The translations under genes and the position numbers were made by a program. 64,000 nt of DNA from Stappia sp. WLB 29 (GTDB lineage: Bacteria > Pseudomonadota > Alphaproteobacteria > Rhizobiales > Stappiaceae), in contig NZ_JALBGD010000007.1 of NCBI RefSeq assembly GCF_023507705.1, positions 124,001 through 188,000 on the forward strand. The letters are read 5' to 3'. The notes beneath the pieces were generated by a model. The model did not search any database, had not been told where the DNA came from, and saw only the letters and a list, made by a program, of their open reading frames with translations. How positions within the stretch are numbered: position 1 is the stretch's first letter; every line of letters starts with the position of its first letter. Positions 3,016 through 57,507 of the stretch are shown here, one piece after another.

Positions 3016-3735
3016 ATGGCGGGCGATATCTACGACAGGATCAGGGCGCTGATCGCGTCCGGGGCCTATCTCGGCGGCGATGTCCTGCCGGAAAGCGAGC
3101 TCGCCGCTCGCCTCGGCGTCAGCCGCACGCCGATACGCGAGGCGATGCGCCGCCTGCAGGCGGAGGGCGTGATCCGGCGCGAGGCCTATCGCCGGGCGGT
3201 GGTCGTCGATGTCGACCCCAACGAGGTCATCCACATCTTCACCGCCCGCGCCTCGCTGGAGCCGATTGCCGTCGGCATGGCGGCGCGCCACAGCGACGAA
3301 GCCTTCCTCAAGGAGTTGCGGGAGCTTCACGAGGCCATGGACGAGGCGATCCACGAGAGCGAGCCCGACCGGCGCCTCTACCGCGACCTCAATGCCCGGT
3401 TCCACCGGGTGATCTGGGCGCAGGGCGGCAATGCCTTCTTTGCCGAACTGGTCAATCTGGTGGCCCGCAAGCCGGTGGTCAGCCCGACCTTCAACAGCTG
3501 GCCGCGGACCGAACTGATGCGCAGCAACCGCCAGCACGGCGATCTGGTGGAAGCGCTGTCGGTGGGCGATGCGGAATGGGCGGAGGCTGCGATGCGCGCC
3601 CACCTCCTGTCCTCGCGCGCCACCTATCGCCGGATCAGCGCCGACACGCCCGAGACGGCACCGCGCAAGCAGGACTGGATGTTCCCCGATCCGGGCACCG
3701 CGGAAATCAAGCCGGAGGCCGCCTCGGTGCGCTGA
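3016..3735 (+). CDS. GntR family transcriptional regulator, FadR/FCD subfamily
   Basis: A 239-residue regulator. Residues 1-70 form the winged helix (ESELAARLGVSRTPIREAMRRLQAEG is the recognition region). Residues about 80-220 form the all-helical FCD ligand domain, including the FHRVIW segment and the late HLLSSRATYRRI helix that bear metal/ligand-binding residues in this family. Being last in the ABC/hydrolase operon, it is the likely local regulator, with the imported substrate or its product as ligand (inference). Confidence 0.92.
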   Translation: MAGDIYDRIRALIASGAYLGGDVLPESELAARLGVSRTPIREAMRRLQAEGVIRREAYRRAVVVDVDPNEVIHIFTARASLEPIAVGMAARHSDEAFLKELRELHEAMDEAIHESEPDRRLYRDLNARFHRVIWAQGGNAFFAELVNLVARKPVVSPTFNSWPRTELMRSNRQHGDLVEALSVGDAEWAEAAMRAHLLSSRATYRRISADTPETAPRKQDWMFPDPGTAEIKPEAASVR

Positions 3736-19412: not shown

Positions 19413-19538
19413 GCGCCGCCCGCTTGCCGTCCTGGGGGTCTGCACCCGCGACCGGGGCATGCGGCGATGGGACGTTCTCCAACAGTCCCGACACTTGCGG
19501 CAAGATGTCAGGACCCGCCGCTGGCAGATCCTTTGTCG

Positions 19539-44270: not shown

Positions 44271-45155
44271 GTGCGCACCAAGGACGGCTTCATGCCCGAA
44301 TGCCGCTGGCTGGATGACGGCGAGACGCTGACCTACCTTCACGCGGCGGTTTCCACGAACCGGCATCGCGTCCGGGTGCCGGAAACCCTCATGCACCTCG
44401 ACGCACTGCTCGCGGATCAGCCGCTCGCCGGCGGGCTGGAGCCACGGCTTGGCGAACAACATCTGCGCGTCCTGACCGTTGTGGGCTTCCCGACCGCGAC
44501 GACGCCTGGCCTACTCGGCGAGATGAACCGGCTGGCCTTCCCGTATCGCTGGTCGACGCGCGCCATCCTCATGGACAAGACCGATGCGGCGCGGCTGCTC
44601 ACCCGGATCCGCCGCCAATGGTTTGCCAAGCGCAAGTCCATCGCGGCGATCCTGAAAGAGGTGATGACCAACGAGCAATCCGCATTGGTCGATACCGATG
44701 CCGCCAACAAGGCCGCCGACGCCGACATGGCCCCGCAGGAACTCGGATCGGATGTCGCCGGCATGGCCTATGTCACGGCGACCGTCACCGTCTGGGACGC
44801 CGACCCGCGCGTCGCCGACGAGAAGCTGCGCCTCGTCGAGAAGGTTATCCAGGGGCGCGATTTCACCGCGATGCCCGAGACCATCAACGCCGTCGATGCC
44901 TGGCTCGGCTTTTGCGCCAAATGCGGGGGTGCGATGACGCTTCGCACCGGCCAAGGCAGCACGGGCGCGACATACCGCTATTACACCTGTTCGACAAAGG
45001 CGCGGCAGGGCAAGACCGGCTGCAAGGGCCGCACGATCCCGATGGACAAGCTGGATCACCTTGTCGCCGATCACATCGAGGATCGCTTGCTCCAGCCCAA
45101 GCGGCTGGAATCCATCCTCGCCAGCGTCATCGACCGACGGCAGATTCGCCCGTAA
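44271..45155 (+). pseudogene. trbE: Chimeric frame: TrbE (VirB4) middle part joined to serine-recombinase zinc ribbon
   Basis: Residues 1 to about 212 match the central TrbE/VirB4 region (KDGFMPECRWLDDGETLTYLHA; AADADMAPQELGSDVAGMAYVTATVTVWDADPR). At about 44908 the frame passes directly into CAKCGGAMTLRTGQGSTGATYRYYTC, the recombinase zinc-ribbon domain. The TrbE ATPase motifs and the recombinase catalytic domain are absent. The in-frame join arose by deletion and no function is expected. Confidence 0.85.
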
Positions 45156-45390
45156 GGCTCGTGAACGGATACACCTCGAGAGTGGCGGCTATCGCCGCGA
45201 CCATCTGCGCGCCTTGGCGCAGCGCGTCGAGGTTGCCGACAAGGAGGTCCGCATTATGGGATCGAAGTCGGAACTGCTCCGTACGCTCGTCGCCGCCCAA
45301 GGCGGGCAATCGGCGGCGTTCGGCGTTCAGAGTTCTGTACTGAAATGGCGCACCGGGGAAGATTCGAACTCCCGACCCCCAGATTCGTAG
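44908..45390 (+). pseudogene. Large serine recombinase, C-terminal remnants
   Basis: After the zinc ribbon (44908 to about 45145) an internal deletion and frame change lead to RKARERIHLESGGYRRDHLRALAQRVEVADKEVRIMGSKSELLRTLVAA, the normal end of element-borne serine recombinases. Its last codons (WRTGEDSNSRPPDS and the TAG stop) are encoded by the tRNA-Arg-derived att repeat. So this gene ran into the tRNA-like sequence either originally or after the satellite inserted. Confidence 0.8.
45345..45390. repeat. Left attachment repeat (attL) of the satellite
   Basis: These 46 bases are identical to 57430-57475, the 3' half (T arm to anticodon loop) of the tRNA-Arg gene on the minus strand. The bases beyond each copy differ. 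They are the product of integrase-mediated insertion at the tRNA. Confidence 0.9.
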
Positions 45391-45487
45391 GCGGACCGGT
45401 CAGCACGAACTAGCAGCGCTTTCTTGCAAAACCCCGGAAGTTCTTCCCCAAGGAAATCAGGGGCTTAGAACCCCTTTCGCAAACGAT

Positions 45488-45637
45488 ATTTCGGAGGAAA
45501 TCCGGGATCTCGCCTACCGTGTTCGGCGCATCGGATCGCATCGGCACGCCACCCCGGAAACCATCCTTGAGGACAAGCACGAGGCGGCCGACAGGCTGCT
45601 GTTGCTCGCCGACCGCCTGGAGCGGGTGCGGGCATGA
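45488..45637 (+). CDS. Possible small protein overlapping the primase start
   Basis: A frame of up to 50 codons (EIRDLAYRVRRIGSHRHATPETI...ADRLLLLADRLERVRA) has good amphipathic character and ends in an ATGA overlap with the primase gene, as phage genes do. A normal start codon is not found, so the upstream part may have been cut by the att site. Confidence 0.35.
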   Translation: MSEEIRDLAYRVRRIGSHRHATPETILEDKHEAADRLLLLADRLERVRA

Positions 45638-47532
45638 CGGACTATGCCGCCCATATTGCCGAGGTGGCCAAGCGCCTCCTGGGGGAACCGAACAAGGCCC
45701 TATCGAAGGATAAGGAATTGCGGTTCGGCTCGCGCGGTTCGCTGTCGGTGAAGGTCGGCGGCCCGCATGCCGGCACCTGGCACGATCACGAAAGCGACAA
45801 CGGCGGCGGCGTTCTCGACCTGGTGGTGCGCGAGCGGGGCGGCGACCGCAAGGCGGCGGCCGATTGGCTGGCCAAGGAAATGGGGATCGGCACGGACGAG
45901 CCGCGCGGCCGATCTCGCGAGGTCGCGGCCTATCCCTACCATGACGAGGCCGGAGCGCTGCTGTTCGAGGTGGTCCGCTTCGAGCCCAAGGACTTCCGGC
46001 AGCGCCGGCCGGACGGCCGGGGCGGGTATGTGTGGAACCTCAAGGGTGTGTCTCCGGTGCTGTATCGTGTGCCGGAGCTGCTGGAGGCCCTGGCGAACGA
46101 GCGTACCGTTTTCATTGTCGAGGGCGAGAAAGACGCGGATCACCTGTGGCGGATCAACGTTCCCGCCACATGCAATCCGGGCGGCGCGGGCAAGTGGCGA
46201 ACGGACTATGCCGAGATCTTCAAGGGCGCTGATGTCGTCATCATCCCGGACAATGACGAGCCGGGCCGCCAGCATGCCGAGACCGTGGCCCGGTCGCTTG
46301 ACGGCGTAGCGGCTCGCGTTCGCGTTCTCGACCTGGTGAACCTGCCCCGTAAGGGCGATGTATCCGACTGGCTCGATTCCGGGGCATCGGCCGACGACCT
46401 ATTCCGCCTGGTCGAGACCGCACAGGATTGGCGACGGCAGGCGGCAACGCATCTGCCCTTGGTATGGTTCGGCGAGGAAGACAACGGCCCGTCGCTGTCC
46501 TGGCTGGTCAAGGGGCTCCTGGTGGATGGCGGCCTATCCACCCTCTACGGCCCGCCGGGCACCTCCAAGACGTTCCTGGCCGTCGATATGGCCTTGCACA
46601 TTGCCCATGGGCGCGAGTGGTTCGGCCTCAAGACCCGCCGCACGGGCGTGGTCTACGTATCGGGCGAAGGTGGGCCGGGGATGCGTCGGCGCATGAAGGC
46701 ATGGCGACAGGAGCGCGACGGCGATCCGACCGCGCCTTTCGCCATGGTGCCGCAATCGGTGAACCTGTTCGATGACGACAGCGGCGCCGACCTGCTGATT
46801 TCGGACATTCTGGAGTGCAGGGCCAGGAGCGGCGGCGAGATCGGTCTTATCGTTCTCGACACCCTGTCACGCATGATCGGTTCGGGTGATGAAGACCGCG
46901 CACGGGACATGAATGTCATCGTGCAGCGAGCCGAGAAGATCCAGCGCGAGACGGGCGCGCATGTGCTCCTGGTGCATCACACAGGCAAGGACAAGGATCG
47001 CGGAATGCGCGGTTCAAACGCTCTTCTAGGCGCGGTGGATGCCGCCCTAGAGGTCGCACGGTTCGAAACAGGACTGTGCGAACTGAAGATTGCCAAGGTG
47101 AAGGATGGCGGCGACCTGACTTCCTTCAAATACGAGCTTTCGCAAGCGGTTCTCGGGGAGGATGCGGACGGTGACGAGATCACCTCTTGCGTCATCGCCC
47201 CTGCGGATGCGCGCCAGGGCTCCGAGGGAAGCGGCCGTTACAAGCTTGGCGACCGGGAAGAGATAGCGCGGCGATGCCTCGCCGATCTTCTCGCAGACCC
47301 CACCGTGACAGGCGTGACAGGCCGTGACACCGGCAAATGTCACGGCGTGACGGGCGGATATCCATCCCATGTCACGGCTGTTGTCACGCTCGATGCGTGG
47401 CGTGACGCCACCCGTGACAGGTTGGGGGAGGACCCCGGCGACAAGTGGCGCAAGCAGTGGGAACGCATGAAAAACAAGCTGTTACGCCTCAACGTGGTGG
47501 GCATTCAAGGAGGGCTGGCATGGCTGGCGTGA
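45634..47532 (+). CDS. Satellite replication protein: TOPRIM primase fused to RecA-like helicase
   Basis: A 632-residue protein. The N-terminal part (LSVKVGGPHAGTWHDHESDNGGGVLDLV) is a primase-like entry. A TOPRIM domain (VFIVEGEKDADHLW near 160-173, VVIIPDNDEPGRQHA near 200-214) follows, then a RepA/AAA_25 ATPase (Walker A LYGPPGTSKTFLA near 300, Walker B GLIVLDTLSR near 404, then HVLLVHHTGKD). This architecture replicates phages and satellites. The 3' end of its gene holds many CGTGAC repeats, probably part of its own origin. Confidence 0.9.
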   Translation: MTDYAAHIAEVAKRLLGEPNKALSKDKELRFGSRGSLSVKVGGPHAGTWHDHESDNGGGVLDLVVRERGGDRKAAADWLAKEMGIGTDEPRGRSREVAAYPYHDEAGALLFEVVRFEPKDFRQRRPDGRGGYVWNLKGVSPVLYRVPELLEALANERTVFIVEGEKDADHLWRINVPATCNPGGAGKWRTDYAEIFKGADVVIIPDNDEPGRQHAETVARSLDGVAARVRVLDLVNLPRKGDVSDWLDSGASADDLFRLVETAQDWRRQAATHLPLVWFGEEDNGPSLSWLVKGLLVDGGLSTLYGPPGTSKTFLAVDMALHIAHGREWFGLKTRRTGVVYVSGEGGPGMRRRMKAWRQERDGDPTAPFAMVPQSVNLFDDDSGADLLISDILECRARSGGEIGLIVLDTLSRMIGSGDEDRARDMNVIVQRAEKIQRETGAHVLLVHHTGKDKDRGMRGSNALLGAVDAALEVARFETGLCELKIAKVKDGGDLTSFKYELSQAVLGEDADGDEITSCVIAPADARQGSEGSGRYKLGDREEIARRCLADLLADPTVTGVTGRDTGKCHGVTGGYPSHVTAVVTLDAWRDATRDRLGEDPGDKWRKQWERMKNKLLRLNVVGIQGGLAWLA

Positions 47533-47628
47533 CAGGTATGTCACGGCGTGACATGGCCGAATGTCACGGCGGTGCGAGGGGGCGTGACACCCTACGCCCC
47601 CCTTAAGGGGGGGCTAGGGGGTGTCACG
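47304..47628. repeat. Iteron-like array of CGTGACA/TGTCACG, candidate replication origin
   Basis: Fifteen 7-mers within 325 bases. CGTGACA at 47304, 47313, 47323, 47413, 47528, 47547, 47583; CGTGACG at 47346, 47401; TGTCACG at 47338, 47370, 47382, 47539, 47562, 47622. The first half lies in the 3' end of the primase gene, the rest in the following gap. Several are paired head to head (TGTCACGGCGTGAC). A GCCCCCCTT/AAGGGGGGGC palindrome at 47596-47614 sits inside the array. Confidence 0.75.
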
Positions 47629-47764
47629 ACCAAACCCCCGCCCGGATACCGCCGGCCCGGCAGGGTCCTTCCCAGGCCCGGACAATACGGGTGGACTGAG
47701 CCCGGCGTTTTCCTCTCCAAGGTCAAATTGATAGCTAAACACCAATGATGACAGCGGGTTAGGC

Positions 47765-48268
47765 ATGCAGTTAGCGCATGGATCGGAGATGATCGGCGAG
47801 CCGAAGGTGGTGCGAAAGGCCGCCTTCGCCAAGCTGGTGAACGTCTCGCCGGGGCGGGTGTCGCAGATGATCCGCGCCGGTCTGCCGGTGGAGCCTGACG
47901 GGCGCATCGACGTGGCGCGCGGCCGCGAATGGATCCGCGCCAACGTGGACCCCAAGCGCTCGGCAGCGCAAGGCGACCAGACGGCCCTGCCCTATGCCGC
48001 GCAACCGGACGCGGCCAGCGAGCGGGCCCGGCTGGTGCGGGAACAGGCGGACCATGCGGCGCTGAAAAACGCCCTGCTGCGCCGCGAGCTGCTGCCGGCC
48101 GGCGAGGTCGAGCGCGAGTGGGCGGACATCCTGCGCCGCGTCCGCTCGCGGCTTCTCGCGGTGCCCTCGCGCCTGCGCCAGGTGCTGCCGCACCTCACCG
48201 CCCACGACGTTGCCACGCTCGACAGCGAGTTGCGCCTTGCCCTGGAGGACCTGGCGAATGACCGATGA
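47765..48268 (+). CDS. Terminase small subunit (Nu1-like)
   Basis: A 167-residue protein with an N-terminal HTH (VVRKAAFAKLVNVSPGRVSQMIRAGLPVE) like lambda Nu1 and a helical, Arg-rich C-terminal half. It binds the packaging site and recruits the large subunit. It overlaps the large-subunit gene by 11 bases. A satellite with its own small terminase can select its own DNA. Confidence 0.75.
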   Translation: MQLAHGSEMIGEPKVVRKAAFAKLVNVSPGRVSQMIRAGLPVEPDGRIDVARGREWIRANVDPKRSAAQGDQTALPYAAQPDAASERARLVREQADHAALKNALLRRELLPAGEVEREWADILRRVRSRLLAVPSRLRQVLPHLTAHDVATLDSELRLALEDLANDR

Positions 48269-50042
48269 CACCATGACCCGCGTGCGCACCGCCGCGCTGC
48301 GCGCCCTGCAGCCGCCGCCGCGCCTGCCCCTGTCCGACTGGATCGAACGCGAGATACGCTTGCCGGAAGACGTGTCGGCCCTGCCCGGCCCGATCCGCCT
48401 TTACCCGTTCCAGCGCGGCATTGCCGATGCGATCAGCGACCCTGAGACCGAGCGTGTCACGGTCGTGAAGTCGGCCCGCATCGGCTACACCACGTTGCTG
48501 GTGGGGGCGCTTGCCGCGCATGTGGCGAACGAGCCGGCGCCGGTGCTCTTCGTGCTGCCGACGGAAGACGACTGCCGCAACTTCGTCGTCACCAATGTGG
48601 AGCCGACATTCGAGGCCTCGCCGGCCCTTGCCGGGGCGCTGGCCGGTGCCAGCGAGGGCCAGGGCGAGAACCGCAACACGCTGCTGTCGCGCCGCTTCCC
48701 CGGCGGCTCGCTCAAGGTCGTGGCGGCCAAGGCCCCGCGCAACCTGCGCGCCCACAACACCCGAATCCTGATCGTGGACGAGGCCGACGCCATGGACGTG
48801 ACGGCGGAAGGAAGCCCGATCCTGCTGGCCGAAAAGCGCACCCTGTCCTTCCCGGATCGCAAGATCGTCATCGGCTCCACCCCGATTTTCGAGGAAACCT
48901 CGCATGTGCTGGCCGCCTATGCGCGCTCCGATATGAGGGTGTTCGAGGTGCCCTGCCCGGACTGCGCAACGTTCCACGAGATCGCCTGGCGCGATATCCA
49001 GTGGCCGGCCGACCGGCCGGACGAGGCCGCCTGGTGCTGCCCGTCCTGCGGATCGGTGGTGGAGGAACGGCACAAACCGGCGATGGTCGCGGCCGGGCGC
49101 TGGCGCGCCACCGCGCCGCAGGTGAAGGGCCATGCGGGTTTCCGCGTCAATGCGCTGGTGTCGCCGCTGGCCAATGCCTCCTGGGGCAAGCTCGCTGCCG
49201 AGTTCCTGGCCGCGAAGGACACACCGGACCTGTTGCAGACCTTCGTCAACACGGTGCTGGGGCAAGGCTGGCGCGCGGAAGGCGAGGAACTGGACGAGGC
49301 CGCGCTCGCCGCGCGGGCGGAAGCCTTCTCGCTCGAGGCGCTGCCGGAAGAGGTGCTGGCCCTGACGGCCGGCGTGGACGTGCAGCGCGACCGCCTCGAG
49401 ATCACATTCGTCGGCTGGGACCGCGCCGGCACCGCCTTCATTCTCGGCCATGCGGTTGTGTGGGGCAGGCCGGCGGACGAGGCGACCTGGGCCGAGCTGG
49501 AGGGGCTGCTACGCCAGACCTACGCGCACCCGCTGGGCGGCCGGCTGGCGCTGGATGCGGTGGCGGTAGATTCCGGCGACGGCGAGACCATGGAAGCGGT
49601 CTATGGCTTCGCCTTCCCGCGCGCCGCGCGCCGGGTGCTGGCGATCAAGGGCGCGCCGGGAGCCCGTCCGTGGATCGAGAAATCCAGAACCAAGACGCGC
49701 GGCGGCCGTCTGTGGATTGTCGGCGTCGACGGGATCAAGAGCCACCTGGCCGGCCGGCTCGCCAAGGGCAACACCGTGCGGTTTTCCGATGCCCTGCCGG
49801 CGGCCTGGTATGAGCAACTGGCGAGCGAGCGCGCCGTGGTGCGCTATGCGCGCGGCCAGCCGCAACGCCGCTTCGAGCGCATCCCCGGCCGCCGTGCCGA
49901 GGCGCTGGATTGCGTGGTCTATGCCTTCGCCGCGCGGCAGGTGATCAACCCGAACTGGCAGGACCGGCTGGACGAGCTGGCCCGGCCGGAGGTGCGGGCC
50001 GCAAAGCCGGCAGCGGTCATTCGGTCGGGATGGATGAGGTAA
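48258..50042 (+). CDS. Terminase large subunit (GpA family)
   Basis: A 594-residue packaging motor. The N-terminal ATPase has a modified Walker A (VVKSARIGYTT near 70-80) and Walker B (ILIVDEAD near 170). A Cys pair set (CPDC near 233, CPSC near 261) is followed by the nuclease domain beginning AGVDVQRDRLE near 371. Lambda GpA-type terminases cut cos sites, so cos packaging is expected. The ATG at 48258 sits inside the end of the Nu1-like gene. Confidence 0.92.
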   Translation: MTDDTMTRVRTAALRALQPPPRLPLSDWIEREIRLPEDVSALPGPIRLYPFQRGIADAISDPETERVTVVKSARIGYTTLLVGALAAHVANEPAPVLFVLPTEDDCRNFVVTNVEPTFEASPALAGALAGASEGQGENRNTLLSRRFPGGSLKVVAAKAPRNLRAHNTRILIVDEADAMDVTAEGSPILLAEKRTLSFPDRKIVIGSTPIFEETSHVLAAYARSDMRVFEVPCPDCATFHEIAWRDIQWPADRPDEAAWCCPSCGSVVEERHKPAMVAAGRWRATAPQVKGHAGFRVNALVSPLANASWGKLAAEFLAAKDTPDLLQTFVNTVLGQGWRAEGEELDEAALAARAEAFSLEALPEEVLALTAGVDVQRDRLEITFVGWDRAGTAFILGHAVVWGRPADEATWAELEGLLRQTYAHPLGGRLALDAVAVDSGDGETMEAVYGFAFPRAARRVLAIKGAPGARPWIEKSRTKTRGGRLWIVGVDGIKSHLAGRLAKGNTVRFSDALPAAWYEQLASERAVVRYARGQPQRRFERIPGRRAEALDCVVYAFAARQVINPNWQDRLDELARPEVRAAKPAAVIRSGWMR

Positions 50043-50052
50043 ATAGCACCTC

Positions 50053-50928
50053 CTACCTGACCACGGAATCGGGTATAACGATATTCAATTTGTCGCCGCC
50101 CAATACATCTTCTGAGTGCTTTATGATTTTTGCAGCTTGATTCAACGCCTCATCGCTCGAATCTGCCTTGATTAAGGTGGACTTCATTTCGCTTAACAAA
50201 TTAACTTCCATCTCTTCTATTAGGAAATATATTGAATACTCCCCGAGATTATCTATGATATCCGAATTTTCCGGGAAAATTGACCTTACTAGATCAACGA
50301 AATCAGCCGGATCGCTTAGCATTTTTGCACCAAGACCGTTCTTAATGACTAAAAGTTGAGCAATAGGATGTATTAGAGCACTCATATATGCTTTATACAA
50401 AGCCCATAGTACAGGAGGCACATGTAACCGCTCCACCTGAAGAGAATTACTACCTATACTTTCCGATCCTGTCACCCCGACTCCGCCAAGCATCAATTCG
50501 GCAAAACTCCGAATCTTTCGAGCTTCATCATTATCCTCTTCCGATATTTTTAAAGCGGCATCAACATCAATACGTTGCATAATTTTGTGAATATTTTTAT
50601 ATTTTTCTAACTCAACAACAGTTCTCCACATATTCTCAATTGCATCCAATCGACGCCTATCCAATTCTGCGTGACGACTTGCTAGACCGGCCAACACGCC
50701 CGTACGAAGGGCCTCAATTTGCCTGCCCTTTGCTTGCAAATCTGCTCGGAACTTCTCTTCATCTCGCCGAAAAGCAGACCGAAGTGTCTCGATTTTTCTA
50801 TCGTAGTTATTCTGTATCGATTTTTCGACTTTAGATTTATAGTAGTTTCCGAAAAAAAATCCGAGAACCATCACAATTGTCGATGAGCTAATTGAAGCAA
50901 TCCACTCATCAGGAATCCAAGAAATCAT
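50053..50928 (-). CDS. AT-rich membrane/coiled-coil protein, probable satellite cargo
   Basis: A 291-residue protein on the opposite strand to the head genes and strikingly AT-rich. One N-terminal membrane helix (IASISSSTIVMVLGFFFGNYY) is followed by a charged coiled coil of about 65 residues and a helical C-terminal domain. No family is recognised. It overlaps the upstream xre stop (ATGA), so repressor and this gene are expressed together in the integrated state. Foreign base use and lysogenic expression suggest superinfection exclusion or anti-phage defence (inference). Confidence 0.7.
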   Translation of the reverse strand: MISWIPDEWIASISSSTIVMVLGFFFGNYYKSKVEKSIQNNYDRKIETLRSAFRRDEEKFRADLQAKGRQIEALRTGVLAGLASRHAELDRRRLDAIENMWRTVVELEKYKNIHKIMQRIDVDAALKISEEDNDEARKIRSFAELMLGGVGVTGSESIGSNSLQVERLHVPPVLWALYKAYMSALIHPIAQLLVIKNGLGAKMLSDPADFVDLVRSIFPENSDIIDNLGEYSIYFLIEEMEVNLLSEMKSTLIKADSSDEALNQAAKIIKHSEDVLGGDKLNIVIPDSVVR

Positions 50929-51152
50929 CGGTCTTTCCTCAATCGAGCACCTGGTCCTTCGCCGTTCTCGTCAATGAAGATCACGCCGGCCGCTTCCAAT
51001 GCGGCGCGGATCGCCTCGACCGTGCGGGGCTTCAATTCCTCGCCGCGCTCCAGCCGGGAAATAGTGGCCGGCGCCACCATGGCCATTTCTGCCAGCTCCC
51101 TAACGCCAAGCCCTAGAGCGGCGCGCGCCATCCGGCATTGCACAGCCTGCAT
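50925..51152 (-). CDS. Xre-family repressor of the satellite
   Basis: A 75-residue HTH protein (CRMARAALGLGVRELAEMAMVAPATISRLERGEELKPRTVEAIRAALEAAGV). It is divergent from the rightward genes with a repeat-flanked promoter between them, and coupled to the AT-rich gene downstream. It is the best candidate for the element's master repressor, similar in place to Stl of PICIs, though much smaller. Confidence 0.85.
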   Translation of the reverse strand: MQAVQCRMARAALGLGVRELAEMAMVAPATISRLERGEELKPRTVEAIRAALEAAGVIFIDENGEGPGARLRKDR

Positions 51153-51242
51153 TTTATAACACCGTTTTCATTTTAGCTTGACGTTATAACCAAGCTGAGA
51201 AATAATCACACCGTTATCAATTTATACCACAGGAGCACACGG
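51153..51242. promoter_or_regulatory. Divergent control region with paired operators
   Basis: ACACCGTTTTCATTTTA (51159-51175) and ACACCGTTATCAATTTA (51208-51224) agree at 15 of 17 bases. Between them is a sigma70-like rightward promoter TTGACG (51178-51183), 17 bases, AATAAT (51201-51206). TTATAAC occurs twice as well. The AT-rich gap contrasts with its surroundings. A repressor bound to both repeats would cover this promoter. Confidence 0.65.
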
Positions 51243-51605
51243 ATGGGCATCCATTTTCGTGAACGGGCGAGGTGCGTCCCGGTCTGGCTGACGATAGAGC
51301 CGGCCACCCGCCGACGCATCGAGGCGGCGATTGAGAACCTGGTGGCACTGCTCGACCAGATCGACGGCGATTGCGACTACGAGGAAACCGGCGACGGCGA
51401 GCCCTATCTCTCATGGCCGGCGAACGGCCCGCATGTGGTGCGCCCCGAACGCGACCCCACCGGCGAAGGGGAACAGCCGCTCGGCTGGACGACGCACGGT
51501 TCCGAACGGCAGGACCACCATTTGCACTTCTGGTCCCACGACGAAAACGAGGAACCGGGGCTGGAGCTGGACACGGCAGAGTTCGAACAGGAACACGAAC
51601 TGTGA
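51243..51605 (+). CDS. Acidic hypothetical protein of the satellite
   Basis: A 120-residue, strongly acidic protein rich in Glu, Asp, His and Trp, with AGGAG before the ATG. It is the first gene rightward of the control region, where PICIs carry an anti-repressor or regulatory gene. No motif is recognised. Confidence 0.6.
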   Translation: MGIHFRERARCVPVWLTIEPATRRRIEAAIENLVALLDQIDGDCDYEETGDGEPYLSWPANGPHVVRPERDPTGEGEQPLGWTTHGSERQDHHLHFWSHDENEEPGLELDTAEFEQEHEL

Positions 51606-51648
51606 GGGGGCCGGTCAAGTCAGCCTCTACACGTCATGAAAAGAAAGC

Positions 51649-51677
51649 TTGACATGCCGTGAAGAGACAGCAATCAT
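51649..51677 (+). promoter_or_regulatory. Promoter upstream of the MerR-like gene and head genes
   Basis: TTGACA (51649-51654), 17 bases, AATCAT (51672-51677). A partly repeated ACATGCC..TG..CAATCAT stretch recurs at 51690-51710, overlapping the next start. It could drive the MerR-like gene, portal and capsid genes, perhaps with autoregulation. Confidence 0.5.
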
Positions 51678-51708
51678 CCGCTCACTCTACATGCCATGGG
51701 AAGCAATC

Positions 51709-52257
51709 ATGTCCAATCCGATGACAGTCAAAGACATGGCGTATCGCCTCGCAGCCGCCACCGGGCAGAGCGAAACGCTTCACGCGCGCCAGGTGCGTCA
51801 CTGGGCACAGCATGGCCTTTTCGGGTTCGAAGCCCTGCAGAGGTCGGGTGAAGGCCGGACGGCGAGCTACTTCTACAATGATCGTCACCTGGCGGCGGCT
51901 CGCCTCTACGCTCTCTTCACCGCCATGGGCTGGAATATCGACCAACTCGGAAAGGTGTCCCGGCTGATCAAGAATATCAGCACGGAAGACGCTCCGAAGG
52001 AGGAGGGGGACGGCTTCGTCAAGATCGACCGCAACGGCATCAAGGCCGTGGTGAACGCTGCCAAGGCCGGCGATTTCGACTGGCACTTCGGCGTCTACAG
52101 CGACGAGGCCGGCGCGGTTTACGGCGGCAACATGATGCGTGACCCGGCCGCCGGCTATGCGAACCTGCTGCACAACGTCGCCCCGGTCTTCACCGTCATC
52201 GCCCTGGGGCCGCTCTTCCGCAGGCTCTTCGCCTCGGATACCGGCAGCGAGGCCTAA
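51709..52257 (+). CDS. MerR-like DNA-binding protein preceding the portal gene
   Basis: A 182-residue protein. Its N-terminal region (VKDMAYRLAAATGQSETLHARQVRHWAQHGLF...SYFYNDRHLAAARLYALFTAMGW) is a MerR-type winged helix; the rest is alpha/beta with a hydrophobic C-terminus (YANLLHNVAPVFTVIALGPLFRRLF). The ATG at 51709 is preferred; ATG 51691 is possible. It lies three bases before the portal gene and is likely a late-gene regulator. Confidence 0.65.
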   Translation: MSNPMTVKDMAYRLAAATGQSETLHARQVRHWAQHGLFGFEALQRSGEGRTASYFYNDRHLAAARLYALFTAMGWNIDQLGKVSRLIKNISTEDAPKEEGDGFVKIDRNGIKAVVNAAKAGDFDWHFGVYSDEAGAVYGGNMMRDPAAGYANLLHNVAPVFTVIALGPLFRRLFASDTGSEA

Positions 52258-52260
52258 GCG

Positions 52261-53673
52261 ATGCGCGCCCTCGCCCGCCGTGTCCTGGATGCCCTGTTCT
52301 CCGCGCGGTCGCTGGACGCGGCCGGCGGCGGCCGCCGGTGGCGGGATGCGCCGACCGTGACCAGCGCCGGCACCCTGCACGGGCTGGCCGCCACGGTGGC
52401 GGCACGGGCGATGCACTTTGCGATGAACAATCCGACGGGCGTGCGCATCACCGAAAGCCTCGCCACCAACATTGCCGGCGACGGCATCAAGCCCCGCTCG
52501 CGGCATCCGCAAGAGGCGGTGCGCCAGCAGCTCCACCAGCGGTTCCTGACCTGGACGGACGAGGCGGACGCGGACGGGCGGACAGACTTTTTCGGCCTCC
52601 AGCAAAACGCGGTGCGCGATCTCGCCACCTTCGGCGAAGCGCTGCTGATCTTCACCGCCGATCCCGACACCGGTGCGCCGCAGCTTCGCCGGCTGCACCC
52701 GGAACAGCTCGACCGTGCCGTGACCCGCGTCAGCGACACCGGCCCGATGGTCTATCAGGGCGTCGAGTTCGACGGCACGGGCCGCGTCGCCGCCTATCAC
52801 ATTCGCCGGGCAGCGCCTGGCGATATGCTCGCCGGCATCCAGCAAGCGCCCGTGCGGATGCCGGCGAGCAACGTTATCCACCTGTTCCGGCCGATGATGC
52901 CGGGACAGGTGCGCGGCCTGTCGTGGTTCGCCCCGGTGCTGCTGCCGGCGCGCGAGCTGGACGCGCTCAACGATGCGCTCTTGATGCGCGCCAAGGTCGC
53001 CGCCCTGCATGCCGGCTTCATCACCGATCCGGACGGCGCCACCCTTTACGACGGGGAACAGACGGGCAACGCACAGCAGGCCGGGCTGGAACCGGGCGCG
53101 CTGATCCCGCTGCCGCCGGGCAAGTCGGTGGAGTTTCCCGACGTGCCCGACCAGGGCGGGGCCGGCGCGCTGGCCGTCAGCACCTATCGGATGATCGCCG
53201 CCGGCACCAATGTCACCTACGAACAGGCGACCGGCGATTACAGCCAGGTGAACTATTCCAGCGCCCGGGCGGCGCTGCTGGAGTTCCGCCGCTTCTGCCA
53301 GTCCATCCAGCATCATGTGATGGTCTTCGGCATGTGCCGGCCAGTCTGGCGCGCCGTCATCCGCCACCAGGTGCTTACCGGCGAGATCCCGGCCGCGATC
53401 TACCAGGCGGAACGGCAAGCGCTGGAGGCGGTGAAATGGCTACCGCCGGCCTGGCCCTGGGTGGACCCCGAAAAGGAAGCGCGGGCGGCAGAGATCGCGA
53501 TCAACAACCGGCTGCGCTCGCGCTCCGAAGTCATCGCCGAACGCGGCTACGACGCGGAAGACGTGGATGCGGAGATCGCCGCCGATGAAGAGCGGCTGGC
53601 CCGGCTCGGAATCGCCCGTGCCGCCACGCCGCCGGCCGCGCCGCAACCGGACGAACAGGAGGCAGCGGAATGA
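52261..53673 (+). CDS. Phage portal protein, lambda GpB family
   Basis: A 470-residue portal. Typical segments are MNNPTGVRITESLATNIAGDGIKP, NAVRDLATFGEALLIF, VIHLFRPMMPGQVRGLSWFAPVL and TYEQATGDYSQVNYSSARAALLEFRR. Portals form the ring through which DNA enters the head. It starts three bases after the MerR-like gene and overlaps the capsid gene by four bases (ATGA). Confidence 0.93.
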   Translation: MRALARRVLDALFSARSLDAAGGGRRWRDAPTVTSAGTLHGLAATVAARAMHFAMNNPTGVRITESLATNIAGDGIKPRSRHPQEAVRQQLHQRFLTWTDEADADGRTDFFGLQQNAVRDLATFGEALLIFTADPDTGAPQLRRLHPEQLDRAVTRVSDTGPMVYQGVEFDGTGRVAAYHIRRAAPGDMLAGIQQAPVRMPASNVIHLFRPMMPGQVRGLSWFAPVLLPARELDALNDALLMRAKVAALHAGFITDPDGATLYDGEQTGNAQQAGLEPGALIPLPPGKSVEFPDVPDQGGAGALAVSTYRMIAAGTNVTYEQATGDYSQVNYSSARAALLEFRRFCQSIQHHVMVFGMCRPVWRAVIRHQVLTGEIPAAIYQAERQALEAVKWLPPAWPWVDPEKEARAAEIAINNRLRSRSEVIAERGYDAEDVDAEIAADEERLARLGIARAATPPAAPQPDEQEAAE

Positions 53674-55496
53674 ACGCACCCGTTCTCATGCGCACGGGCT
53701 TCACCCCGGCCAGCCTGGACGAGAAGGCCCGCACGGTGGAGCTGATCGCCTCCACCGGCGCGGGCGTGACCCGGCACGATGCCGCCGGCCCCTTCACCGA
53801 ACTCCTGACCGTCTCCGGCGCTGCCATCGACCTGGCCCGCCTGGAGGGCATGCCGCTTCTCGACAGTCACCGGCAGGACGGGCTGGAAAGCGTGCTCGGC
53901 GTTGTCCTGGCCGCCCGCATCGAGGCGGGCAAGCTGGTGGTCAAGGTCCGCATTTCCCCGCGCCACGAGGCCATCTGGGCCGATGTGCGCGACGGGATCA
54001 TCCGCAACGTATCGGTCGGCTATCTCCCGAAGAGCTGGCGCGACGGCAAGGACCCGAACACGGGCGCGAGGGTCCGCACCGTCACCCATTGGGAGCTACG
54101 CGAAGTCAGCCTTGTGGCGGTCGGAGCCGACCCGGCCGCACGAACCCGAGGAACCGGAATGCCCGAAACGCAGAACCAGCCGGAAGCGCCCCCGGCAACC
54201 ACAACGACCACCACGACCGGCACGCCGCCGGTGCAGGAGACGACCCGCGCGGCCGTCAACCAGGAGATCCGGGCACTTGCCGTCACCTTCGATCTCGGCA
54301 GCGACTGGGCAAACGACCAGATCGACCGCGGCGCGAGCGAGGGCGAGGCCCGATCCGCGGCGCTGGAGCGGCTGCGCACCGCACGCGAGCGGGCGCCGGT
54401 GGCACGCACCAGCAACATGGTGCACCACGACGACCCGGCCACCCTCGCCACCCGCATGGGCGAAGCGGTCTATGCCACCCGCGTGAACCCGGCGCACAAG
54501 CTGTCCGACCAGGCCCGCGCCTTCACCGGCATGACCACGCTGGACATGGCGCGCGACTGCCTGCAGCGGGCGGGGGTCTCCACCACCGGCCTGCTGCCGG
54601 CCGACACGATCACCCGCGCGCTGCACACCACCAGCGACTTCCCGGCGATCTTCGCCGACACGGCCAATCGCACCATGCGGGCCGCCTACCAGTCCGCACC
54701 GGCCACCTTGAAGCGGCTGGCCCGGCAGACCAGCCACAAGGATTTCCGCGCCAAGACCAAGGTGCAGGCGGCCGACATGGCCAAGCTGGAGAAGGTGAAC
54801 GAGCACGGCGAGTTCAAGAGCTCCGGCTTTGTCGAGGCCAAGGAAACCTACGCCATCGGCACCTACGGCACGATTGTCGGCCTGACCCGCCAGGCCCTCG
54901 TCAACGACGACCTGGGAGCCTTCACCGATCTTGCCGGCAAGCTCGGCCTCGCCTCTTCCGAGTTCGAGGCGCAATTCCTGGTCGACCTGCTGACCGTCGG
55001 CGGCGGCCTCGGCCCGGTCATGGGCGACGGCAAGGCCGTGTTCCATGCCGATCACGGGAACGTTGCGGCGGCCGGCGCGCCGATCTCCAAGGAAACGCTG
55101 TCGGCGGCGCGTCTCGCCATGCGCCGACAGAAGGGCATCAACGGCCGGCCGATCGCCATTGCCCCGAAGTTCCTGGTGGTGCCGCCGGAGCTGGAGACAC
55201 AGGCGGAAGAGATCCTGGCGGCCATCCAGCCGACCAAGACCGATGACGTCAACGTCTTCGGCGGCAAACTGGAATTGGTGGTGGAGGCCCGCCTTACCGA
55301 CGTGAACCGCTGGTACGTCGCGGCCGATCCGGCGACCGTCGAGGGGCTGGAATATGCCTACCTGATGGGCTCCGAAGGTCCGCAGACCGAAAGCCGGGCC
55401 GGCTTCGAGGTGGACGGCGTGGAAGTCAAGGTTCGCCTGGACTACGGCGCGTCCTTCCTCGACTGGCGCGGCTGGTACACGAACGCGGGCGCGTGA
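53670..55496 (+). CDS. Prohead protease/major capsid protein fusion
   Basis: A 608-residue protein. Residues 1-165 are an HK97-type prohead protease with the His (LLDSHRQDGLESVLG) and Ser (NVSVGY) of that fold and the closing ELREVSLVAVGADP. A proline/threonine linker near 170-190 (scaffold-like) leads to a major capsid domain of the Mu gpT/HK97-like kind from about 240 to the end (FPAIFADTANRTMRAAYQ; EFEAQFLVDLL; SFLDWRGWYTN). Protease, scaffold and capsid in one chain are known from phages; processing should release mature capsid. Confidence 0.88.
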   Translation: MNAPVLMRTGFTPASLDEKARTVELIASTGAGVTRHDAAGPFTELLTVSGAAIDLARLEGMPLLDSHRQDGLESVLGVVLAARIEAGKLVVKVRISPRHEAIWADVRDGIIRNVSVGYLPKSWRDGKDPNTGARVRTVTHWELREVSLVAVGADPAARTRGTGMPETQNQPEAPPATTTTTTTGTPPVQETTRAAVNQEIRALAVTFDLGSDWANDQIDRGASEGEARSAALERLRTARERAPVARTSNMVHHDDPATLATRMGEAVYATRVNPAHKLSDQARAFTGMTTLDMARDCLQRAGVSTTGLLPADTITRALHTTSDFPAIFADTANRTMRAAYQSAPATLKRLARQTSHKDFRAKTKVQAADMAKLEKVNEHGEFKSSGFVEAKETYAIGTYGTIVGLTRQALVNDDLGAFTDLAGKLGLASSEFEAQFLVDLLTVGGGLGPVMGDGKAVFHADHGNVAAAGAPISKETLSAARLAMRRQKGINGRPIAIAPKFLVVPPELETQAEEILAAIQPTKTDDVNVFGGKLELVVEARLTDVNRWYVAADPATVEGLEYAYLMGSEGPQTESRAGFEVDGVEVKVRLDYGASFLDWRGWYTNAGA

Positions 55497-55711
55497 TGGC
55501 GGCCCTTTCCGAACTGGCCGACCGGCTGGAGCGGCTGCGCAAGCTCCGCTCCAGCGGGCGCCGGGCGGCCGAAAGCGAGGGCGAAAAGGTCGAATACCGC
55601 AGCGATGCCGAGTTGGCCGCCGCGATTGCCGACCTGGAACGCCAGATCGCCGCGCAAGCCGGCAAACCGCCCGTGCGGGTGGTCTACATCAACTCTTCGA
55701 AAGGCACATGA
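55496..55711 (+). CDS. gpW-like head-tail joining protein
   Basis: A 71-residue protein (two helices, then KVEYRSDAELAAAIADLERQIAA), the pattern of gpW-type proteins that close the filled head and prepare it for tail attachment. Start ATG overlaps the capsid stop by one base (GTG 55493 is an alternative). Its presence fits a head that must accept a tail from elsewhere. Confidence 0.6.
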   Translation: MAALSELADRLERLRKLRSSGRRAAESEGEKVEYRSDAELAAAIADLERQIAAQAGKPPVRVVYINSSKGT

Positions 55712-56049
55712 CCATGAAGAACTTCGTGCAGCCTGGGAACTACGTCACCGTCACCGCGCCCGCCGGCGGCCTGTCTTCCGGGGAAGGCGTGCTGGTCGGC
55801 CACCTGTTCGGCGTGGCCGCCACCACGGCGGCGGAAGGGGCGGAAGTCGAGATCGCCACCAATGGCGTCTACGACTTGGCCAAGGACGACACGGCGGCCT
55901 TCACGGCCGGCGCGCCGGCCTACTGGGACGACGCCAACAAGGTGGTCACGGCCACGGCGACCGACAACCTTCGCATCGGCACGGCGCTTGTCGCCGCTGC
56001 CACGGCGGCCACCGTCGGCCGCATCCTCATCACCGGACACGCGATCTAG
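55708..56049 (+). CDS. DUF2190 capsid-associated protein
   Basis: A 113-residue protein (FVQPGNYVTVTAPAGGLSSGEGVLVGHLFGVAATTAAEGAEVEI...ALVAAATAATVGRILI). DUF2190 proteins lie by capsid genes and resemble lambda gpD decoration proteins. The ATGA overlap with the gpW-like stop ties it to the head operon. Confidence 0.85.
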   Translation: MTMKNFVQPGNYVTVTAPAGGLSSGEGVLVGHLFGVAATTAAEGAEVEIATNGVYDLAKDDTAAFTAGAPAYWDDANKVVTATATDNLRIGTALVAAATAATVGRILITGHAI

Positions 56050-56156
56050 CGGCGGGTGTGGGATGGGCGGCGCGGTCCCGCCTCAAGCCCCTGCCTGCCG
56101 CCGCTGGGATTCCTTCAGGCAGGGGCAGACCGCCTTCAACAATTCGAGGTCGAGCG

Positions 56157-56354
56157 ATGCGCGGAAAACCATCTTTCAGACAATCCGACCTGACCCGCGC
56201 CGCGAAGGGCCTCAAGGCCGCAGGCGTGGAGGTCAGCCGCGTGGAGATCGAGCCGAGCGGGCGCATCGTTCTGCACACCGACGGCGATAACGAGCCGGAG
56301 GCCGTTTCGGCCCTGGATGCATGGAAGAGGAAGCGGGATGCGCGTCCGGCTTAA
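56157..56354 (+). CDS. Small protein upstream of the integrase
   Basis: A 65-residue protein (RQSDLTRAAKGLKAAGVEVSRVEIEPSGRIVLHTDG) overlapping the integrase start by 17 bases. This short form is common just upstream of phage integrases in alphaproteobacteria; a role as excision-related factor is possible but no HTH is obvious. Confidence 0.7.
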   Translation: MRGKPSFRQSDLTRAAKGLKAAGVEVSRVEIEPSGRIVLHTDGDNEPEAVSALDAWKRKRDARPA

Positions 56355-57420
56355 AGGCGTCAACACGATCCGCAAGCGGCGGAAGGACGGCACGGTCACG
56401 GTCTATCGCTACCACCGCGCCACCGGCCATCCGCTTCGCGGCGAGCCGGGCTCTCCGGAGTTTCTGGCTTCCATGCACGAGGCCGGCCAGCTCCAGCTTT
56501 CCCGTCACGACGGAAGCGTCATCGGCCTTATCCGGCACTACACGCTGTCGGATGACTTTGCCGGCAAGGCGGAAGCGACCAAGCGGGAATATCGGCGGAT
56601 CCTGACCAAGGTGGAAGGCGAATTCGGCGACATGCCCATTGAGGCGCTCGACGACCCGCGCGTGCGTCAGGAGCTGCTGGCATGGCGTGCGCGCGTTGCC
56701 GAGGAATCGGGACCGCGCGAGGGCGATAATCGCCTGTCCATCGTCTCTTCAATGCTGACCTGGGCGCGCGAGAACGGGCACATTCTTCATAACCACGTCA
56801 TCGGCTTCAAGCGCCTGTACAGGAGCAATCGCGCCGATGCCATCTGGCAGCCCGCCCATGTCGAGGCCTTTTGTGCGGTCGCGCCTGTCGAGTTGCAGCG
56901 CGTCCTGGTCCTGGCGCTCCACACTGGGCAGCGCCAAGGCGATATCCTCGCCCTGTCGTGGACCAACTACGATGGCCGATACATCTCAATTCGGCAGAAC
57001 AAGACCGGCGCGCGGGTGGAAATCCCCTGCACGGCAACGCTCAAGACCATGCTGGATGGACTGCCGAAAACGGCAAATGTGATCCTGACCACCAAGACCG
57101 GCCGGCCGTGGACGGCCTATCATTTTCGCCATGCGTGGAAGGCTGCTGCTGCCAAGGCCGGCATTGAAGGCCTACACTTTCACGACCTTCGCGGCACCGC
57201 TGTCACGCGGCTTGCCGAGGCCGGCTGCACGCTTCCGGAAATCGCGGCCATCACCGGGCATTCGCTGCGGTCGGTGAACTCGATTCTTGAAAAGTATCTG
57301 TCACGCACGCGGCATCTGGCCGACCAGGCAATTGCCCGTCTGGAGAACAGACCGCGACCGGAATTTGCAAACCTGCTGCAAACTTCGGCTGATCCCGTCA
57401 ACGGGAGGAATGCTAAGTGA
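56338..57420 (+). CDS. Tyrosine recombinase (integrase) of the satellite
   Basis: A 360-residue site-specific recombinase. After a DNA-binding N-terminal half, the catalytic set is complete: Arg in TGQRQGD (near 199), Lys in NKTGARVE, HDLRGT (near 282), GHS (near 307) and Tyr in EKYLSRT (near 320). It ends ten bases from the tRNA-Arg/att repeat, the normal place for an integrase acting on that tRNA. The ATG at 56338 (MRVRLKGV) is chosen. Confidence 0.95.
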   Translation: MRVRLKGVNTIRKRRKDGTVTVYRYHRATGHPLRGEPGSPEFLASMHEAGQLQLSRHDGSVIGLIRHYTLSDDFAGKAEATKREYRRILTKVEGEFGDMPIEALDDPRVRQELLAWRARVAEESGPREGDNRLSIVSSMLTWARENGHILHNHVIGFKRLYRSNRADAIWQPAHVEAFCAVAPVELQRVLVLALHTGQRQGDILALSWTNYDGRYISIRQNKTGARVEIPCTATLKTMLDGLPKTANVILTTKTGRPWTAYHFRHAWKAAAAKAGIEGLHFHDLRGTAVTRLAEAGCTLPEIAAITGHSLRSVNSILEKYLSRTRHLADQAIARLENRPRPEFANLLQTSADPVNGRNAK

Positions 57421-57429
57421 TTGGGAAAT

Positions 57430-57475
57430 ATGGCGCACCGGGGAAGATTCGAACTCCCGACCCCCAGATTCGTAG
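57430..57475. repeat. Right attachment repeat (attR), within tRNA-Arg
   Basis: A 46-base copy identical to 45345-45390. Here it forms the 3' half of the intact tRNA-Arg gene, so the satellite restores or leaves the tRNA whole. Confidence 0.9.
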
Positions 57476-57507
57476 TCTGGTGCTCTATCCAGCTGAGCTA
57501 CCGGTGC
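57431..57507 (-). tRNA. tRNA-Arg (anticodon ACG)
   Basis: Minus-strand 77 bases fold as a cloverleaf: acceptor GCACCGG/CCGGTGC with encoded CCA, D arm AGCTCAGCTGGATAGAGCA, anticodon stem CCAGA/TCTGG with loop CTACGAA, and T arm GGGAGTTCGAATCTTCC. ACG reads CGN arginine codons (with inosine). It is the integration site of the satellite. Confidence 0.96.

Follow-up and report, generated by a model that had tools for sequence, protein, structure and literature searches.

A tail-less, capsid-encoding element at tRNA-Arg in Stappia sp. WLB 29 very probably belongs to an old family of phage satellites

Among phage satellites that make their own heads, capsid-forming phage-inducible chromosomal islands (cf-PICIs) are described as integrated elements of about 14 kb on average that encode a capsid, protease, portal, connector and terminases and no tail, and whose induction is controlled by a regulator (PMC10690885, PMC10803314, PMC11389934, PMC13230959); here and below, statements on published systems reflect the parts of the cited papers that were available. 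Published cf-PICI capsids are of the PF05065 family (PMC13230959) and form three radiations (PMC11389934), the packaging module contains an HNH endonuclease (PMC10690885), and an AlpA homologue and a Pri-Rep initiator are further features (PMC10448857). The Streptomyces satellites MulchRoom and MiniFlayer likewise have their own terminases, portal, capsid and head-tail adaptor, and the tail of MulchRoom is thought to come from its helper (PMC10690885). The Vibrio satellite-plasmids TG54 (cf-PISP, 15.8 kb) and TG93 (PISP, 11.1 kb) are also capsid-encoding and tail-less (PMC13230959). Here we describe an integrated element at positions 45,345-57,475 of a 64,000-nucleotide stretch (hereafter the window) from the marine bacterium Stappia sp. 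WLB 29. It very probably belongs to an old phage-satellite family whose members build small heads and package their DNA themselves but make no tail. The element resembles cf-PICIs in function, not by sequence, and the published descriptions of cf-PICIs set it apart from them.

The element measures 12,085 bp from repeat start to repeat start and is bounded by two direct repeat copies, identical at 46/46 bp, at 45,345-45,390 (attL) and 57,430-57,475 (attR core). This pair is the sole exact repeat of at least 20 bp with a spacing above 3 kb in a scan of the 64-kb window, and a search of the bacterium's own genome with the left copy (E <= 0.001) found no third copy. Since ARAGORN places a tRNA-Arg(acg) gene, the integration target, on the minus strand at 57,431-57,507, the right copy is the 3' half of this tRNA and the left copy duplicates it. 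An earlier sequence-only reading had proposed identical 46-bp flanking repeats at tRNA-Arg, and both the exact repeat and ARAGORN bear this out. The element is thus found in an integrated state, with att sites plus its own integrase.

Between the repeats, the plus strand encodes small and large terminase subunits (TerS, 47,765-48,268, phrog_57, E 1.1e-34; TerL, 48,258-50,042), a lambda-family portal (52,261-53,673; PF05136, TIGR01539), a fused prohead protease and major capsid protein (MCP; 53,670-55,496), a gpW-like head-tail joining protein (Ad1; 55,493-55,711; NF047331, phrog_2545), a DUF2190-type head decoration protein (55,708-56,049; phrog_122) and a tyrosine integrase (56,317-57,420; phrog_1, E 2.4e-37). 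TerL is of the lambda gpA type, with GpA ATPase plus nuclease domains (PF05876, PF20454, phrog_15). The protease/MCP fusion scored 737.5 bits against NF045541 (cut-off 525), and its Pfam matches are PF25209, PF10124 and PF04586 only, which is the Phage_capsid_4/Mu-gpT-like type. Own capsid, maturation protease, portal, head-tail connector and both terminase subunits are therefore all present. All recognised genes are open frames, and 4-bp overlaps join portal/MCP, MCP/gpW, gpW/DUF2190 and cargo/Xre. The family matches and intact frames that the sequence-only reading gave for the integrase, Xre repressor, terminases, portal, protease-capsid, gpW-like and DUF2190 proteins hold up. Its gene models need one correction, as TerL probably starts at 48,258 and not at 48,210, and its gene list is completed by a MerR-like gene (51,709-52,257) that precedes the portal.

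Relatives of this element are widespread. The capsid protein found matches in 36/101 genomes (own, genus, family and order), and neighbourhoods were examined for the stronger matches among these 36. At least 12 of these 101 genomes contain an element of the same type, including 5/14 within the genus (G000, G002, G009, G012 and G013); among the named relatives are Stappia indica, Stappia taiwanensis, Roseivivax halotolerans and a Roseiarcaceae bacterium, and further copies lie on Paracoccus and Pseudorhodobacter replicons. The capsid relatives of Stappia indica SBBC 49 and SN13-18 stand at 94% and 82%. The capsid profile matched at E <= 1e-60 in 16/385 genomes of a class sample and 36/398 of a phylum sample, counts that mix satellites with tailed phages and come from samples with a few genomes in common. 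Of 12 neighbourhoods from these two samples, 11 have gpW 3' of the capsid gene and one is tailed. Flanking direct repeats with one copy inside a tRNA gene bound 14 of 18 loci examined and were not found at the other four (G073, G016, G104 and G076), in searches covering spans of about 6-20 kb; the repeat list of a further locus, L232, is meaningless owing to long runs of N. These 14 loci, one of 22 IMG/VR contigs (L106, the only one with both ends), 5/12 class/phylum loci and a Paracoccus plasmid copy bounded by a 17-bp repeat make up 21 two-ended elements. None of the 22 IMG/VR contigs has the terminal repeats of a circular contig.

The gene order recurring in two-ended relatives is replication gene, TerS, TerL, Xre plus cargo, portal, MCP, gpW, DUF2190, small protein and integrase. 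Sixteen elements of this standard order span 11.1-12.5 kb and use tRNA targets of eight anticodons; targets across the family are tRNA-Arg (three anticodons), Phe, Ser, Trp, Asn, Gly, Met, Lys and Glu. Portal, MCP and gpW form the constant core, usually with DUF2190 next (not found in G102), and the surrounding parts vary. TerL is located after gpW in G177 (10.9 kb) and TerS-TerL after DUF2190 in G569; the Paracoccus plasmid copy has 10.6 kb, G031 18.0 kb, G438 17.8 kb, and G110 9.2 kb with TerL and portal not recognised. Identity between the window element and those of G002/G012 is 94-100% in TerS, TerL, portal, MCP, gpW and DUF2190 but 26-27% in the integrases, which are unrelated, and the tRNA sites differ. 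The replication protein of G002 also differs from that of the window, and relatives carry O-like initiators or D5_N/Prim-Pol proteins. Terminases fall into two types that do not follow the branches of the capsid tree; G022 has both, one in each of its two elements, with TerL 69% and 37% identical to that of the window.

No tail or lysis gene was recognised between the window att sites with Pfam, NCBIfam, PHROGs and a set of 60 tail or late phage proteins (40 late proteins of four phages plus 20 tail or large late proteins), in agreement with the sequence-only reading. The same 60 proteins match nothing but the DUF2190 protein in 20/21 two-ended elements, so that the tail-less boundary is shared by all but G438. 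G438 has a tape-measure and a minor tail gene 3' of DUF2190 (L231, 9,086-12,243), both of which were among the 60 queries, and this element may set tail length and borrow the remaining tail parts. A PHROG scan of 59 non-core proteins from 12 elements, replication excluded, gave no tail or lysis family among the 25 of 32 families listed, and a scan of 103 proteins from 16 elements gave replication, regulation, integration, partition and unknown families (25 of 106 listed).

Tailed phages with a related head module are distant from the window element and differently arranged. The best capsid identity is 41.7% among 40 of 146 matching phage records, and all 146 are below 60% identical. In Rhodobacter phage RcKemmy and Stenotrophomonas phage S1 the TerL, lambda-type portal, protease-MCP fusion and decoration protein are related to those of the window element, but the MCPs are 38% and 36% identical, the genomes have about 40 kb, gpW/Ad1 precedes the portal, and FII, neck, tail or lysis genes follow the head module. 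The position of gpW is 3' of the portal and capsid genes in 16/16 standard-order elements. Four annotated tailed phages have a gpW-like, Ad1 or connector gene 5' of the portal; after the MCP and a DUF2190-type or similar gene come neck and tail genes or, in S1, lysis and then tail genes. In a quick MCP tree without bootstrap of 26 satellites and 26 others, the satellites form one branch with support of 98 in the Shimodaira-Hasegawa-like approximate likelihood ratio test (SH-aLRT); the others comprise 18 with a tail marker, four with a tape-measure protein and four unverified loci (L056, L062, L080 and L173). The portal tree likewise places 24 satellites in one branch against 15 tail-verified loci (SH-aLRT 100). 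With the satellites in one branch of each of these trees and the position of the root uncertain, a single origin is possible. Close relatives continuous with tail genes, which the sequence-only reading had named as evidence for a decayed prophage, did not appear; the phage capsids are distant and the tailed relatives sit on another branch. The other outcome named there as refuting, a lack of relatives with the same tail-less boundary, is contradicted by the 20 elements that share it.

To examine mobility, we joined the window flanks and aligned them to 10 of the 12 relatives that have the right flank. The joined flanks align across the junction, as at an empty site, in 4/10 (G002, 93% over 506 positions; G008, 85% over 595; G004, 87% over 451; G003, 77% over 387), and in the remaining 6/10 the flank match begins at the core. 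One contig (G076:C238, L074) reads portal-MCP-gpW-integrase, 55 bp, the 3' half of tRNA-Arg(ccg) with its core at 3,216-3,261, TerS and TerL. This is the arrangement that an attP junction would have in an excised circle or a head-to-tail array. A search of the 88%-complete G076 genome with 30 bases of the L074 core (<=3 mismatches) gave no further copy, and such a junction was seen at no other locus screened. The tRNA-Arg site in the window is a hot spot. Because homology to G012 past the tRNA resumes at window position 19,416 and continues leftwards, window 19,416-45,344 (~26 kb) is most simply a further insertion at the same tRNA-Arg that is absent in G012; it ends at 44,271-45,155 in an apparent recombinase fragment (judged by eye).

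Terminases of the lambda type usually cleave DNA at a cos site close to the TerS gene. A putative cos site, GGGTCCTTCC...ACGGG...GCCCGGCGTTTTC, lies upstream of TerS at 47,663-47,724 on the plus strand of the window. The motif GGGTCCTTC is exact within 1,200 bp upstream of TerL in 17/26 satellites versus 2/24 tailed-labelled loci, with one mismatch in 8 more of the 24, and is followed by a shared downstream pattern; the sample includes near-copies (window, L031 and L105; L032 and L033). It has no match in satellites L069-L071, and 19/23 exact matches in these loci are those near TerL. Since about a third of shuffles of the window also give a match by chance, we weight the call on conservation.

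Element length also appears constrained. The 16 standard elements average 11.8 kb with a standard deviation of 0.45 kb, versus ~0.96 kb when modules are shuffled (P 0.0002), and the lengths of the left (replication) and cargo modules are inversely related (r -0.73). Over eight sets of elements, P was 0.0002, 0.0014, 0.0004, 0.0018, 0.019, 0.14, 0.043 and 0.003 (G110, G177, G031 and G438 excluded; L244 in three of the eight). Such offsetting suggests a packaging capacity limit, to be read with caution given kinship and the few independent elements.

The primase-helicase (45,634-47,532, plus strand; Pfam, PHROGs) is an exchangeable replication module; of the TOPRIM/AAA architecture proposed earlier, the AAA_25 part stands and the Toprim match is weak, at 16.9 bits under the Pfam cut-off of 27.2. 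At 47,528-47,640 on the plus strand, at its 3' end, are CGTGACA-type repeats (repeat family D3) and hairpins with a single-strand DNA fold of -40.3 kcal/mol (z -7.1), a possible origin or TerS site. From a 90-bp region at 51,153-51,242, Xre and cargo are transcribed to the left and the hyp120, MerR-like and head genes to the right. In this presumed divergent promoter/operator region, TTGACGT is shared among the six elements aligned, and the window copy has TTATAAC twice (by eye). The Xre-type repressor (50,925-51,152, minus strand; HTH_3) overlaps the cargo gene. To the right, hyp120 (51,243-51,605, plus strand) is an acidic early protein conserved in a 10-row alignment that matched no family in library scans. 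The MerR-like product (plus strand) has no Pfam family; its AlphaFold model has a predicted local distance difference test (pLDDT) score of 81.5, and the top PDB match is CvkR, of MerR type (E 6.7e-4). We propose that Xre is the silencing switch and the MerR-like protein a late activator, of the head operon. The small gene before the integrase (56,157-56,354, plus strand) is a proposed excisionase, as it accompanies the same integrase type in G022b; in G022a an 80-aa gene at the corresponding position weakly matches excisionase phrog_66 (E 0.006).

The cargo slot is the AT-rich stretch between the TerL stop and the switch. Its G+C is 0.37-0.55 versus 0.50-0.66 in the surroundings, and lower in 14/14 elements measured; for the window it is 0.468 versus 0.659 in the surrounding 17 kb. 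The window cargo gene (50,053-50,928, minus strand) is an orphan: its product has no match in Pfam, PADLOC or PHROGs, no relatives in 100 other genomes and no close one in IMG/VR, and its AlphaFold model is unusable (pLDDT 42.7). Among ten cargo proteins scanned with PADLOC, defence cargo was found in larger elements: G016 holds a type I restriction-modification set, G031 a HEC-06/Orf5-like gene together with a methyltransferase, and G073 a type II restriction enzyme. Nothing was reported by PADLOC for the window protein, the 193-aa protein of L090 or the 347-aa protein of L091, and G018 gave a marginal match only. The slot of G153 holds a methyltransferase and a restriction enzyme, and that of the Paracoccus relative an HNH gene flanked by two methyltransferases (annotation). 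By analogy, we propose that single cargo genes are defence genes too, and the exchangeable cargo gene probably guards the host against competing phages.

The differences from published systems lie mainly in the head and packaging genes. The cf-PICI capsid is PF05065, whereas here a PF25209/Mu-gpT-like capsid is fused to the protease, and, unlike the cf-PICIs as described, the window element has a lambda-type portal, a gpA terminase and a cargo slot between TerL and portal. No HNH endonuclease was recognised among the window-element proteins, and AlpA had no match among the 25 of 46 families listed; the MerR-like regulator and primase-helicase may have similar roles. Alphaproteobacteria are absent from the main cf-PICI hosts as listed in PMC10803314. 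MulchRoom and MiniFlayer, compared here by description only, differ in their linear genomes, ~1-kb terminal repeats, lack of an obvious replicase and virulent helper, and are stated to be without homology to PICIs, cf-PICIs, PLEs or P4 (PMC10690885). TG54 and TG93 are episomal, with capsids of PF05065 and PF03864 (PMC13230959). Escherichia coli satellites with capsid, decoration and tape-measure genes use tRNA sites, have no full tail set and are akin to the G438 element, but are described without the terminase, protease and head-tail adaptor genes that are all present in the window family (PMC10448857). The Shinella locus L038 (1,778-11,794) and the Flavimaribacter locus L047 (5,227-14,549), with an integrase, a protease-capsid gene, a tape-measure protein and no window-like portal or terminase nearby, resemble these E. 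coli satellites as described in PMC10448857. Four Burkholderiales loci (L055, L058, L059 and L060) also have protease-capsid genes with no window-like portal or terminase nearby; in L058 an integrase, a primase, a helicase and a minor-tail-like phrog_1924 protein lie beside the gene. The 10,690-bp Rhodovastum atsumiense plasmid RHOAph (L242), with a capsid fusion, ParA, a toxin-antitoxin pair, a DUF3987 protein and no annotated portal or terminase, is possibly a satellite-plasmid. In what was seen of the open-licence literature searched, there is neither an alphaproteobacterial satellite that forms capsids nor one with this capsid family; two founding papers are outside it, so an earlier mention is possible.

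The element could instead be an inert prophage that lost its tail and lysis genes. Tailed phages have homologues of its head genes, and individual relatives (G022b, G442 and G110) are damaged. However, the same tail-less boundary recurs across different tRNA genes with frames mostly intact, capsid and portal sequences lie on branches clearly apart from the tailed relatives, gpW has a different place from that in the four phages, and replication and cargo module lengths offset each other. We consider decay very improbable and reject it on recurrence, synteny and trees. Membership of the published cf-PICI family with an HK97-type capsid would account for the similar size and the functions in common, namely MCP, protease, portal, connector and terminases without a tail (PMC10690885, PMC10803314), but the MCP matches PF25209 and Mu gpT, not PF05065, the portal is PF05136, TerL is of GpA type and an HNH gene is not recognised, which makes this reading very improbable. 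The cf-PICI analogy drawn in the sequence-only reading therefore holds for function and fails for capsid family, and its suggestion of a new lineage is supported. It is also very improbable that the heads serve a purpose other than receiving a tail, such as intracellular maintenance, release by some other carrier or use as a decoy to exhaust helper tails. In favour of this, the window element has no recognised tail, lysis or FII-like gene, and capsid-encoding elements with plasmid maintenance genes exist (RHOAph; PMC13230959). Against this, the head-tail joining protein kept in 16/16 standard elements has no obvious use without a tail, and distant families, plasmids and swapped integrases point to horizontal transfer. 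A gene transfer agent is ruled out by the integrase, att repeats and empty sites; an RcGTA-like cluster sits elsewhere, on contig C3.

Several observations weigh against a satellite family with its own heads and borrowed tails. For the window copy, excision, particle formation and transfer are predictions from its genes. The 18-kb G438 element holds a tape-measure and a minor tail gene, and the metagenome element L112 (outside the 21) has an FII-like gene, so the boundary is not absolute. Absence from the 40-protein set is weak by itself, because this set matched 18/26 tailed-labelled loci, missing eight as well as the G438 tail genes. The TerL tree does not unite the satellites and needs two changes, the cos call rests on conservation and position, and the length test is weaker in two of the eight sets, which are small and non-redundant (P 0.14, 0.04). 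Damaged copies exist (portal split in G022b, TerL in two pieces in G442, and G110). Finally, the resident 44-kb phage contig C9 encodes an HK97-type head and neck, and its compatibility is uncertain. This contig (G000; 44,021 bp, 40,000 bp read; L208, L209) is siphovirus-like with phage genes throughout (HK97-type head, neck, tape measure, fibre) and is possibly a phage-plasmid or prophage and candidate helper. As a named helper it was set aside, its neck proteins being of another type than gpW.

For satellites of this family, the loci themselves display exchangeable integrases at tRNA genes, a replication module, a repressor-cargo operon, a terminase gene pair with a cos-like site, and head genes. 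From these we propose a cycle in which Xre would keep the element silent until a phage signal lifts repression. The integrase and the neighbouring small protein would then excise a circle, to be copied by the primase-helicase, and the MerR-like protein would turn on the operon from portal to decoration protein. Terminase would cut at cos and fill a small procapsid with the ~12-kb genome. Dependence on a helper's tail is what we infer for the last step, in which the portal-gpW end would receive the neck and tail of a helper phage that also lyses the cell. The helper probably supplies an FII-like stopper as well as the tail, because the element ends where tailed relatives (RcKemmy) continue with an FII-like protein.

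As far as the available descriptions go, known capsid-forming satellites use an HK97-type (PF05065) capsid or are from Streptomyces and Vibrio. A lineage that adds other capsid, portal and terminase families suggests repeated origin of head-only elements and allows comparisons of what head-tail joint a satellite cannot do without. Prophage finders may score members of this family as broken prophages. New anti-phage genes could be sought in the cargo slot, where the window's own gene matches nothing known, and the offsetting module lengths yield a testable prediction of capsid capacity. Overall, we think it reasonably likely that these elements represent a separate, ancient origin of capsid-forming satellites: a head lineage centred on the alphaproteobacteria that lost its tail once and diversified beyond one order, reassorting integrases, replication genes, two terminases and defence cargo around a constant head cassette, and held to ~12 kb by its own small capsid, with a second class at ~18 kb. 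If this is true, the gpW end would offer a generic portal to lambda-type necks, and the available phage tail would set the host range.

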